From Phalacrocorax aristotelis (Eukaryota > Chordata > Aves > Suliformes > Phalacrocoracidae): a stretch of 64,000 bases of DNA. This document shows, piece after piece, positions 34,401 through 58,400 of the stretch. Both the position numbers and the translations under genes were made by a program. The notes beneath the pieces were generated by a model, which searched no databases, had not been told where the DNA came from, and saw only the letters and a list, made by a program, of their open reading frames with translations. Where the stretch lies: NCBI RefSeq assembly GCF_949628215.1, contig NW_027441317.1, positions 1 through 64,000 of the forward strand. Reading direction: 5' to 3'. The stretch's first letter is position 1; each line of letters opens with the position of its first letter.

Positions 34401-37400
34401 CCTGTGTGACGACACTACTCCTCGCGTGACGACACCCCTCCCCATGCGATGACACCCCTCCCTGTGCAGCACCGCCCCGCTTATGTGACATCCCCCCCCC
34501 CCCGTGTGACAACACCCCCCCTCCCCGTGTAACAACACCCTTTCTCGTGCGACACCGCCTCCCGGTGTGACGACACCCCTCCTCATGTGACAACACCCCT
34601 CCTCGTGTGACAACACCCCTCCTCATATGACAACACCCCCCTCCCCATGTAACAGCACCCCTCCTTATGTGACACCGCCTCCCCGTGTGACGACACTCCT
34701 CCTTGTGGGATAACACCCCTCCCTGTGTGACAACATCCCTCCTCATGTGACACTGCCTCCCTGTGTGACGACACCCCCCTCCTCGTGTGACGACACCCCC
34801 TCCTTGTGTGATGATCCCCCCCCCATGCGATGACACCCCTCCCTGTGCAACGACACGCCCCTCCCCGTGCAACACCGCCCCTGCTCATGTGACACCCCCC
34901 CCCCCGTGTGACACCACCTCTCCCTGTGTGACAACACCTCCCCGTGCGACACCACCTCCCCAGCGTCGCCCGGGCCTACCCGGGGCTTGAAGGCGATGAT
35001 CTTGAGCACCATCTCAACGGTGAAGAGCCCCGTGAACACCATGTTGAGCAGGTCCATCACATAGTTGAAGGGCTTGGACTGCTCATAGTGCTTTGGGAAG
35101 GGGGGAAAGGGGGGAGTCCTTGACTGTCCCCCCAGGTCCCCGAGTGTCCTGTCAGGGTGTCCGCCCCACCCCGCCCCACCTGGACAGCCAGAGCGATGGT
35201 GTTGAGGAGGATGAGGACAAACATGATGTACTCAAAGGCGGTGGAGTTGACCATGGCCCAGACGCGGTACTGGCTGCGGTTCTTGGGGATGTAGCGTCGC
35301 AGCGGCTGTGCCTTCAGGGCGTACTCCACGCACTGCCGCTGTGGGGAGCAGGCACAGCCAGCTGCCGCAGGGGACGACACCGCACGCGGGGGGACGGGGG
35401 GACATCGCGGTGCTCCCCAGTCACCTGGTTCTTGTCCAGCTCGCAGTTGCGGTACTCGCTCTCCCCCTGCGCCCGGAAGGTGATGATGACGAAGCCGACG
35501 AAGATGTTCATCATGAAGAAGGCGATGACGATGATGTAGATGATGAAGAAGATGGAGATCTCCACCCGGTAGTTGTAGATGGGACCCTGGTCCTCGGCGT
35601 TGGCGTCAATGGCCTTGTACAGCAGCCTGGGGTGACGGGGGGGACGCAGTGGTCCGCGAGGCGCCACCCAACACAGGCGTCGGGGTGTCGCCTCCCCCCA
35701 CCCTCTGCCGCCAGGTGACTCACGCGGGCCAACCCTCGAAGGTGGAGACGGTGAAGAGCGCCATCATCCCCGCCAGCACGTTGTCGAAGTTGAAGTCGCT
35801 GTTGTGCCACAGGCGCTCCCGCACCGAGGGGTGGGTGACGTCCCCATCCTTATACACCAGGAAGGTGCCCCTGCGCCACGGGGTGGGGTGGGGTGGGGTG
35901 GGTGGGGAACAGCGCGCAGGGGACACCCGTGCCAAGGGGGTGACGCCGCACTGGCGCCACGGGCTGGGCCATCAGCTGGGACCAGGGACGTGGGCACAGG
36001 CACAGCCCCCACTCACGCGGCGCCCACACCCTATGATTACAGCACACGTACACGCACCCTGAACGCACACCCGGCCTACCCTCGCACTCACCTCAGGCTA
36101 CACTCGCACCTACACTCACACTCAGCCCACAGTCATATACACTCCCACACAAGCTACGCTCACGTCTACTCATACCCCCATATTCACACTCCCACCCAGC
36201 CTACACTCACAGCCTATACTCAACCCACACTCACACTCAATCCACAGTGACCCTACACTTACCCTACACTCGCTCAAGGTACGCCCACACTCAAGCTACA
36301 CTCAGCCTGCACTCACACTGAATGTACACTCGCGTCTAGTCACACTCAGCTGACAGTCGCATCTACACTCACTCAAGCCACACACACTCATACTCAGCCT
36401 AACCTCATGCCTACACTCACCCAGCCTACCCACACTCAAGTTACACTCACCCTACTCACCCTCAGCCTACACTCACATCTACAGACACTCGAGCTACACT
36501 CATAACTCATCCTCTGCCTACACTCACATCTACAGTCACTTTACATTAATGCTCAGCCTTCACTCACAGCCTCCAATCTACACTCACGCGCAGCCTATAC
36601 TCACACTCAGCCTACAATCTACACTCACACTCAAGTCACACTGAACTTCTACATTCAGTTCACTCATGCTCCACCTACACTCGACCCACACTCAAGCTCA
36701 ACCCATGCTCACCCTACATTTGCTCTCACCCTGCACCAACACTCAGCCGACACTCACACTCAAGCGACACTAATGCTGCACTCATATTCAGGCCTACACT
36801 CACTCAAGCTACACTCACACTCAAGCGACACTCATCCTGCACTCACATTCAAGCCTACACTCACACTCAAGCTACTCTCACACTCAGCCTACACTCACAT
36901 TCGCTCTACACTCCCACAGCCCACACTCACGCTGTCTCTACACCCGACACCCCCGTCACCCTCCCATCCCGCACTCCCTGCCGACCCTCGCTCACCCCCC
37001 CAGCCCGCACTGGCACTCACACTCACACTCATACTCCCCCGGGGCGGTAGGACCCACTTGCACTCTGCTGGCGTGTGCTTGGCCTCATCGGTGCAACTGT
37101 AGAACTTGCCCTGGGAAATTGGGGGGGTCAGGGGGGACCCCAGTCCCCGATGGGGGGGGTCGGGGGGGGGACCCACAACCACTGATGGTGTTTCAGGGGA
37201 CGCCCAGGATGTGGGAGTGCCCCTCCCCACACCTTGAAGAGCTGCACCCCGATACAGGCGAACATGAATTGCAGCAGCGTGGTCACGATCATGATGTTCC
37301 CGATGGTGCGGATGGCCACGAAGACGCACTGTACCACGTGCTGGGGACAGAGGGACAAACGGACGTTGCGGACACAGGGACACCAGGACACCACGTGCTG

Positions 37401-55400: not shown

Positions 55401-58400
55401 AGGGACAGACGGACGTCACAGACACCAGGACACAGGGACACTGGGACAACAGGACCCCACTTGCTGGGGACAGAAGGACAGATGGACGTCGCGGACATCG
55501 GGACACATGGACACTGGGACAACAGAACCAACGTGCTGTGGACAGAGGGACAGACGGACGTCACGGACACTGAGACACAGGGACACTGGGACAACAGGAG
55601 CCCATGTGCTGGGGACAGAGGGACAGACGGACGTCGCAGACACCGGGACACTGGGACAACAGGAACCCACGTGCTGTAGACTGAAGGACAGACAGATGTC
55701 GCAGACACCGGGACACAGGGACACTGGGACAACAGGAGTCCACGTGCTGGGGACAGAGGGACAGATGGACGTCACAGACACCGGGACACAAGGACACTGG
55801 GACGACAGGAGCCCTCGTGCTGGGGACAGAAGGACAGATGTACGTGAGGGAGACTGGGACCCCACGTGCTGGGGAAAGAGGGACAGACAGACGTAGTGTA
55901 CACAGGGACAACAGGACCCCAAGTGCTGGGGACAGAGGGACAGACGGACGTCACGGACACTGGGACACAGGGACACTGAGAGAACAGGACCTCATGTGCT
56001 GGGGACAGAGGGACAGACGGACGTCGCAGACATGGGGACACAGGGACACTGTGACGACAGGAGCCCTCGTGCTAGGGACAGAGGGACAGACGGACGTCAC
56101 GGACACCAGGACGCAAGGACACTGGGACAACAGGACACCGCGTGCTGGGGACAGAGGGACAGACGGACGTCGCGGACACTGGGACAGTTGGACACAGGGA
56201 GAAGAGGAGCCCACGTGTCGGGGACAGAGGGACAGATGGACGTCGGGGTCACTGGGCCAGTAGGCTACTGGGACAACAGGAGTCCACGTGCTGGGTACAG
56301 AGGGACAGACGGACGTCGCAGACACCGGGACACAGGGACACTGGGACAACAGGACCCCAGGTGCTGGGGACAGAGGGACAGACGGATGTTGTGGACACCA
56401 GGACATCTGACACCAGCAGCAGCACCGCGTGCCGGGGACACCCGTTTTCCTAGTCTCACCACCCCAGTGACACCAGTAACACCCCACCCCACATGCTAGT
56501 ACCCCGCCCCCCCCAGCGCTCCCAGTCGCACCAGTACAGCCTGCAGCAAGGCATGGGTGCTGCTGGCTCCCCCCACCCCTCCTGCCAGTGCTCCCAGTGC
56601 TCCCAGTGGCGCACCTTGAGGCCCTTGGCGCGGTTGATGGCCCGCAGGGGCCGCAGGACACGCAGGACCCGCAGGATCTTCACCACCGAGATGGCGCTGG
56701 AGCTGCCGCCGGCGCCAGGGGACATCAGTGCTCCCAGTGTCCCCCAGTGCCCTCCCAGTGCTCCCAGTCCCCCTCCCAGTGCCCATACCAGTGCCTCCAC
56801 CAATGTTCCCAGTGCCTCCCAGTGCCCTCACTGGTGCTCTCAGTGCCCTCAAAGGCACTCCCAGTGCCCCCAGTGGTGATCCCAGTGCCTCCCAGTGCTC
56901 CCAGCAGTGCTCCCAGTGCCTCCCAGTCCCCTCCCAGCGCCCTCCCGGCACCCTCCCAGCGCCCATCCCAGTGCCCCCAGTGCCCCCCCCGGCTCACTGG
57001 ATGCCGAAGGAGATGAGGGAGACACCGACCACCAGCAGGTCAAGGAGGTTGAACCAGTTGCGGCAGAAGGAGCCTTTGTGCAGGAAGGCGCCGAAGGCCG
57101 TCATCTGGGGGGGAAGCCGTGAACCCCGACTTCGGGTATCCCCCCCCCTCCTCCTGAGGACCCCCCAAAACCCTGGGGACCCCCCCCCCCCCAGAGCGTA
57201 CCTTGAGCAGGATCTCCACGGTGAAGATGGAGGTGAAGGCGTAGTCGAAGTAACCCAAGATCTGGGGGGGGGGGGAGGGGCAGGGTGAAACGGGGTGACC
57301 CCAACACCCCCCCAGCCCCCCTCGACCCCCCCAAACCCCCCAGGGCCCCCCCAAACTGCCCCAAGTCCCCCAGCTCTTCCCAGCACCCCACATTTTTGCC
57401 CCCACCCCCAGCAATCGGATCCCACACGTTTATGGGGTGAATCACACACACACCCTCCCCCCTCCCAGTTTGTTCCAGTTTGCCCAGTATCCCACGTGAT
57501 TGCGGGGCGAGTGGGCGCGGACGGGGTCCTCGGCGGCCAGCGAGACACTGCTGAGGATGATGAAGACGAGGATGAGGTTGGTGAAGACGTGGTGGTGGAT
57601 GAGGGCGTGGCACCGCACCCGCAGCCTGCGCCGAGCACACATCAGCACCAGTGCTCCCAGTTGCTCCCAGTGCTCCCCCCTCCCCTTCATCCCAGCTTAC
57701 TGGGTGCCCTCCACCTGCGGGTGCTCCCACTCCAGTTACTCCCAGTTCCCTCCAGTTTCCGCTCAAGTGTCACCTGTCCCCAACCATATACCATCCAGTG
57801 CTCCCAGTTCTCCAGTCCCAGTGCTCCCAGTCCCCCCAGTTTGTGTCCCCACTCCCAGCCCCCCCCAGTTTGTGTCCCCGCTCCCAGCCCCCCCCAGTTT
57901 GTGTCCCCACTCCCAGTGCTCCCAGCCCCCCCCCAGTTTGTGTCCCCGCTCCCAGCGCTCCCAGCCCCCCCCAGTTTGTGTCCCCGCTCCCAGTGCTCCC
58001 AGTCCCCCCCAGTTTGTGTCCCCGCTCCCAGCGCTCCCAGCCCCCCCCAGTTTGTGTCCCCGCTCCCAGCGCTCCCAGCCCCCCCCAGTTTGTGTCCCCG
58101 CTCCCAGTGCTCCCAGTCCCCCCCAGTTTGTGTCCCCGCTCCCAGCCCCCCCCAGTTTGTGTCCCCAGTCCCAGCGCTCCCAGCCTCCCCCAGTTTGTGT
58201 CCCCACTCCCAGTGCTCCCAGTATCCCCAGTTTGTATCCCTAGCCCCATCCCTCCCAGTGCTCCCAGTCCCCTCTCTCACGGGTTGGTGCTGCCCAGCAG
58301 GAAGAAGGCGCTGCCCTCGGGGATCGGCACCACCTTGGTTTTGGGGGGCTCCTCCAGGAACTCCAGCCGGGGCCCCCCCAGACTGTCCCGCTCCTCTCCC

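Follow-up and report, generated by a model that had tools for sequence, protein, structure and literature searches.

Based on the analysis of 64,000 bp of DNA from Phalacrocorax aristotelis (contig NW_027441317.1, positions 1 to 64,000; this whole stretch is called the window), we have identified an intron in which the 3' splice junction of the following exon is repeated 263 times ahead of the functional site. The intron belongs to a gene for an L-type calcium channel alpha-1 subunit, which we take to be CACNA1F. It is probable that this array arose from the local junction by exon stuttering (the tandem copying of exon edges through the adjacent intron), that the copies are passive and that the terminal site is picked by exon definition.

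An array of 3' splice junction copies

The channel gene lies on the minus strand between 63.7 and 29.7 kb. The exon behind the array matches Cav1 channels in PDB (best Cav1.3, 36/36 residues), and two further pieces of the gene have Pfam matches, to the ion-transport domain and to the calcium-channel IQ domain. The name CACNA1F rests on a partial human Cav1.4 sequence; the alignment to that sequence runs exon by exon with about 75-97% identity for most exon pieces, and identity is lower in the C-terminus and in pieces that run through an intron.

The array intron (56614-37341, minus strand) measures 19,274 bp and is almost entirely a 73-bp minisatellite. It is preceded by the 3' part of the upstream exon (56700-56615; IIIS4; 27 residues), and begins with a 5' part before the array (56614-56441; donor AAG/gtgcgc at 56614, the slash marking the splice point). 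The array itself (56440-37341) holds 263 upstream sites; it is well formed from about 56363 to 37341, and the site at 56431 is degenerate. A terminal shortened unit (37396-37341) ends in the functional acceptor, which reads ctctgtccccag/CACGTGGTACAG at 37340 and lies 57 bp from the next copy, whose first base after the AG is 37397. The true exon (37340-37233; donor AAG/gtgtgg) encodes 36 residues of the S4-S5 linker and S5 of repeat III.

With a fuzzy search allowing up to 5 substitutions in 17, we located 264 junction anchors from 56431 down to 37340; the last of them is the true site. Exactly 73 bp separate the anchors in 222 of 263 cases; among the 41 other spacings, 24 deviate by steps of eight (65, 57, 49, 81, 89), nine are 72 bp and one is 145 bp, that is, one unit with a junction too altered for detection. 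The consensus of the 222 gap-free units, TGTTGTCC CAGTGTCC CTGTGTCC CGGTGTCC GCGACGTCC GTCTGTCC CTCTGTCC CCAG/CACGTGGGCTCC, can be understood as the junction preceded by tract repeats of 8 bp. It combines a pyrimidine tract, an AG and seven exon bases, which stand in register in the consensus. The earlier note on this DNA, which had reported about 260 units of this composition with the true site as the last, is borne out by the anchors and the consensus. Its description of the sites as near-identical is slightly strong; the repeat is real, and the gap-free units differ from the consensus at a median of 6 of 73 positions (range 1-16), with a mean identity between units of 0.83 in gap-free comparison.

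The junction sequence is confined to this intron. On the gene strand, the stretch 56700-37100 has 126 exact matches to CAGCACGTGG, the true site included, and the remaining window has none on either strand. The exact 17-mer CTGTCCCCAGCACGTGG has 63 matches in the 1.279-Gb genome; 62 fall in the contig of the window, all on the gene strand, and are the same 62 as counted locally. The remaining match, in contig C26, was read by eye as an open frame, and the reversed pattern, used as a control, has no match genome-wide.

Origin from the local junction

Among 49 junctions tested in the gene, only the one at 37340 has copies in the adjacent intron, where 195 windows share at least 22 of 30 bases with it. 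None of the other 48 junctions has a proximal window at this threshold; in the distal control, three acceptors with C-rich tracts gave one such window each. The same intron, at the same codon, is present in three paralogous genes, which we treat as ohnologues, and measures 499 bp (contig C6), 1152 bp (C1) and 263 bp (C21). None of these three introns holds a copy of the junction: at best 15, 15 and 13 of 23 bases match, against 23/23 in the array. The paralogue exons start with CATGTTGT, CATGTGGT and CACGTGGT and encode the peptide HVVQCVF in each case; in the exon behind the array, the bases CACGTGGT code for His-Val-Val. HVVQCVF is identical in the Cav1.3 and Cav1.2 alignments, and Cav1.1 chains match over the same 36 residues.

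Since the paralogue exons begin alike without any array, the exon bases predate the array. Together with the confinement of the 17-mer, this indicates growth from the local junction: as judged from sequence, the array took its exon bases from the junction next to it. The suggestion that the array grew from a segment covering the intron-exon junction is thus upheld by both the genome-wide uniqueness and the paralogue introns. The search for similar DNA gave incomplete results, from which the window's own exon was missing; the exact-pattern count, by contrast, agrees with the local one. The array may have been founded by a tandem duplication of the last ~66 intron bases and the first 7 (perhaps 8) exon bases. 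The minisatellite would then have expanded upstream, lately in blocks of many units, as in avian exon stuttering. Such a tandem duplication would account for the terminal place of the true site, as the original junction would remain at the 3' end and leave the exon intact.

Strength of the copied acceptors

Acceptors were scored with a matrix built from the gene itself. It comprises 27 acceptors, with the AG picked by eye, out of 30 exon-start peptides; the unclear sites 62628 and 56698 were excluded, and 37340 was kept out of the matrix. A donor matrix was likewise built from 21 donors out of 29 exon-end peptides, eight without a clear GT being dropped. In addition, we used acceptor and donor matrices of general splice-site frequencies (the general matrices). 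The earlier note would have been refuted if most units had lacked a usable AG or tract, which is not so; the AG is kept in 231 of 263 upstream copies (CAG or TAG in 225). By the in-gene matrix, 204 copies reach the 10th percentile of real acceptors and 114 the 25th percentile; among 865 other AGs in the gene, 48 attain the latter. Only 2 of the 263 reach the median, compared to 30 of the 865, while 221 reach the median of real acceptors by the general matrix. Scores from both matrices therefore support the multiplication of acceptors, yet by the gene's own matrix the copies appear mid-range for this gene.

Each unit may in addition carry a branch point. An A at -26 is kept in 255/263 copies, and the consensus has no other A from -51 to -3, which makes this near-invariant base a branch candidate.

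Selection to keep or to purge decoys was considered and rejected, as neither the conservation nor the relation of score to distance gave a signal. Mean conservation is 0.931 for the tract, 0.919 for the CAG, 0.943 for the non-CpG exon part and 0.947 for the other non-CpG columns. How far a copy lies from the exon has no bearing on its score (Spearman -0.01, p 0.87), and the AG is kept in 16 of the 20 nearest and 17 of the 20 farthest copies. The near-equal conservation of columns, the distance-independent score and the even retention of the AG fit passive drift. Template-strand G-quadruplexes were also rejected as a special feature of the array: it has 17 motifs, and 50 simple shuffles averaged 15.5, so that the number does not exceed chance.

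Probable choice of the terminal site

The copies are most likely passive, although each keeps a 3' splice module of A at -26, tract and CAG. Only the last module is suitably spaced from the donor of the exon and followed by real exon sequence, and exon definition would for this reason select the terminal acceptor; distant copies would define kilobase exons. Exon definition is most efficient for exons shorter than about 300 nt. If the AG copies lying 57, 130 and 203 nt upstream were used, the exon would measure 165, 238 or 311 nt, respectively; with the next AG copy it would reach 449 nt, so that most copies would be out of reach. The interpretation offered in the earlier note is supported for the junction origin and, by splice-site score, for the multiplied acceptors, but not, in the form given there, for a full competition among some 260 sites: only three AG copies give an exon of at most ~310 nt, only two copies reach the median acceptor of the gene, and no selection to keep or remove copies is seen.

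Several points weigh against this reading. The exclusive use of the terminal site is assumed. The true site scores 8.8 by the in-gene matrix, and 85/263 copies score at least as high (63/263 by the general matrix). At least two As between -44 and -18 are present in 162/263 units, and the branch context (GCGAC in 125/263, GTGAC in 69/263) fits the branch motif only loosely. The exon share of a unit is short (7-8 bp), so that the case for its homology is made by its precise placement behind the AG and by the paralogues, not by length. Finally, the nearest copy, at 37397, scores 10.3 by the in-gene matrix and thus exceeds the true site.

This nearest copy is the basis of a second possibility, in which the choice is leaky: the terminal site would be the main one, and 37397 would be used in some transcripts, adding 19 codons to the III S4-S5 linker. 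The copy lies 57 nt upstream, in frame and stop-free, and the permissible 165-nt exon together with the in-gene score makes some use of it plausible from the sequence, which also tells against exclusive use of the terminal site. As a general account, we consider leaky choice unlikely, given that 37397 is the only in-frame, stop-free copy among the 263, that the general matrix places it below the true site (7.8 against 8.9) and that the insert would presumably lie within a conserved gating linker.

Growth and turnover of units

Across 12 blocks of the array, mean differences from the consensus range from 5.3 to 6.9, highest beside the exon and with no clear trend. The identity of units is flat with lag, at 0.83-0.84 for lags of 1-30 units, and the best matches between units concentrate at lags of 59 and 26 units. 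This points to duplications of ~4.3 and 1.9 kb instead of unit-by-unit slippage. A higher-order three-unit repeat (period 219 in Tandem Repeats Finder) was rejected because identity is flat with lag, lags 59 and 26 being enriched instead.

The number of units could in principle be an artefact of assembly, as GC-rich tandem arrays are hard to assemble and the contig has only 64,137 bp. We find this quite improbable: the units are diverse, with only 37 of the 263 compared identical to another, and non-array sequence is present on both flanks. An artefact could moreover alter the unit count, not the existence of the array.

Possible stepwise splicing or chance resemblance

Units reading AG/CAC/GTGGG place a donor-like site 3 nt past the acceptor, and the copies could on this ground act as landing sites for stepwise splicing. 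A misused copy would recreate a donor from which the remaining array would be spliced out, at the cost of one in-frame His codon. A GT at +3 (CAC/GTG) is indeed present in 201/263 copies. By the in-gene matrix, 125 GTs of the array reach the 25th percentile of the gene's 21 donors, 122 of them exactly at +3; 107 of the +3 GTs reach the median of the gene's own donors, and an acceptor and such a donor occur together in 91/263 units. However, the general donor matrix gives CAC/GTGGGG a score of 3.7, whereas the weakest of the 21 real donors has 4.6; by this matrix only 36 of 3323 array GTs attain the level of that weakest donor and one attains the 25th percentile. A G at -1, found in 18 of 21 real donors, is absent from these sites, the AG/CAC/GTGGG motif has no special conservation, and CAC/GTG is simply what the exon encodes.

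Classical ratchet points of recursive splicing consist of AG/GT directly joined. The array units resemble them in having an acceptor and a donor-like signal next to each other, and differ in the 3 nt between the two signals and in a donor without G at -1; AGGT motifs of the ratchet type number only seven in the array. As a test for recursive splicing, the outcome is a GT at +3 that is good by the in-gene matrix and weak by the general one. Stepwise splicing is thus, in our estimate, very improbable, and equally doubtful is its corollary that the array forms a self-correcting ladder, in which stepwise removal of the intron costs no more than in-frame histidine insertions. If it were true, the pairing of acceptor and donor would let an essential channel gene tolerate a 19-kb field of decoys.

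Least credible of all is an independent intronic minisatellite that resembles the acceptor by chance, or a later substitution of a unit for the original junction. The unit may be read as largely 8-bp NNNTGTCC steps, and unit lengths often shift by 8, so that the similarity of the tract may be partly generic. Yet 7/7 exon bases stand in register after the AG, compared to at most 5/7 at the starts of 27 other exons, and in the paralogues, which have no array, the exon opens with identical or almost identical bases.

A second array and the chromosomal setting

The window covers nearly all of contig C262 (64,137 bp; 352 contigs in the assembly), which is not assigned to a chromosome, has a guanine-cytosine (GC) content of 63% and is dense in tandem repeats. 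On the plus strand, at 12.5-20.3 kb, lies a neighbouring gene with PHD and JmjC matches, which we presume to be KDM5-like. In this gene, for which 14/16 exon starts and 9/16 exon ends were used, a second junction-derived array (14940-15558, plus strand) precedes the true acceptor at 15559, in the intron before the exon GEPKTWYG... It consists of ten partial copies (at least 21/37 matches) of the acceptor and ~27 exon bases at 14950-15488. With the stricter 30-base window, seven windows pass at this junction and none at the other 22 junctions tested in the gene (1/23 positive). The presence of this second array in the neighbour suggests that junction amplification is likely a property of the chromosomal setting, not of CACNA1F. 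Five of the ten copies read GGGTGAGCC, with a donor-like GTGAGC after the copied acceptor; the true exon has GCGAGC.

Further minisatellites are found at 3163-3817, 4097-4963, 20861-21107, 34314-34956 and 36739-36930; for the latter two, in the channel gene, the neighbouring junctions tested have no copies. Broken reading frames at 900-2960 (minus strand) resemble a CR1 retroposon; the one fragment searched has no Pfam match. Elsewhere in the genome, a paralogous calcium-channel gene (loci L023-L034), which we take to be CACNA1S-like, is present in at least 12 copies (ten in C21, the others in C68 and C25) that are 97.4-99.9% identical over 3.1 kb. In C21, the copies form five inverted pairs with a spacing of ~45.7 kb, in the stretch from 0.2 to 0.89 Mb. 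A muscle calcium-channel gene may have been amplified here as palindromes, or the pattern may be an effect of assembly.

Relation to known junction arrays

In chicken, exon edges with the adjacent splice donor or acceptor are copied through the intron (Hron et al., 2026; PMC12954441). According to the main text of that study, this exon stuttering affects 236 introns in 115 genes, 190 of these introns being located on dot chromosomes; the exon part measures 20-187 bp, in 1-44 copies and over spans of 112-23,555 bp, and the screen required matches of at least 20 bp above a bit-score threshold. Like those cases, the array described here sits in a GC-rich gene, leaves the exon intact and fills the adjacent intron with local, direct and imperfect tandem repeats of an exon edge, splice site included (PMC12954441). 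The copied block likewise runs across the border of exon and intron, taking in the splice site, and the array is absent from the paralogues taken as ohnologues. In contrast, the exon share of the CACNA1F units falls below the 20-bp cut-off, unlike that of the KDM5-like units, and 263 copies over 19 kb compare to 1-44, the counts being made differently (with the 20-bp cut-off in that study). Length polymorphism between individuals is a further trait reported for exon stuttering (PMC12954441), and our data come from one assembly. Placement on a dot chromosome is another such trait; the features seen here in this respect are a short contig of 63% GC, its dense tandem repeats and the KDM5-like neighbour.

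An older, independent description concerns the mirages of amphioxus, in globin genes (PMC3087553) and PGBD5 (PMC3902484), with Adh3 and TnC cited there. These are similar minisatellite-like tandem duplications of an intron-exon boundary, with BflGb6 haplotypes of six and three units and with units of 150-160 bp, or 10-72 bp in Adh3 (PMC3087553). Regular splicing is described as not disturbed by them (PMC3087553; PMC3902484), which by analogy favors passive copies in the CACNA1F array. Splice sites also occur within the repeat units of a minisatellite in human IFI6/6-16 (Turri et al., 1995, as cited in PMC4526556), yet there on the donor side, and two of these units serve as alternative donors.

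CACNA1F occurs zero times in the main texts of PMC12954441 (the supplement lying outside this count) and PMC9974502, and the array is unnamed in the titles and abstract openings of the listed work on mirages, dot-chromosome stuttering, acceptor minisatellites and recursive splicing. Judged by these titles, abstract openings and main-text counts, the intron has not been reported before. We therefore file the array as a further, extreme case of the stuttering or mirage class, a class that is itself already known.

Implications

The copy number of this array is well beyond that reported for exon stuttering, though the published counts include only copies with at least 20 exon bases. The stuttering process can thus amplify an acceptor with a mere seven exon bases, a form invisible to the published screen, and more such introns are likely to exist. 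If the choice of acceptor were leaky, the turnover of the array would feed protein variation. The intron provides a natural experiment on 3' splice-site choice, in which one true site follows 263 copies and 85 of these equal or exceed it in score; a wrong acceptor choice in this gene would break an ion channel.

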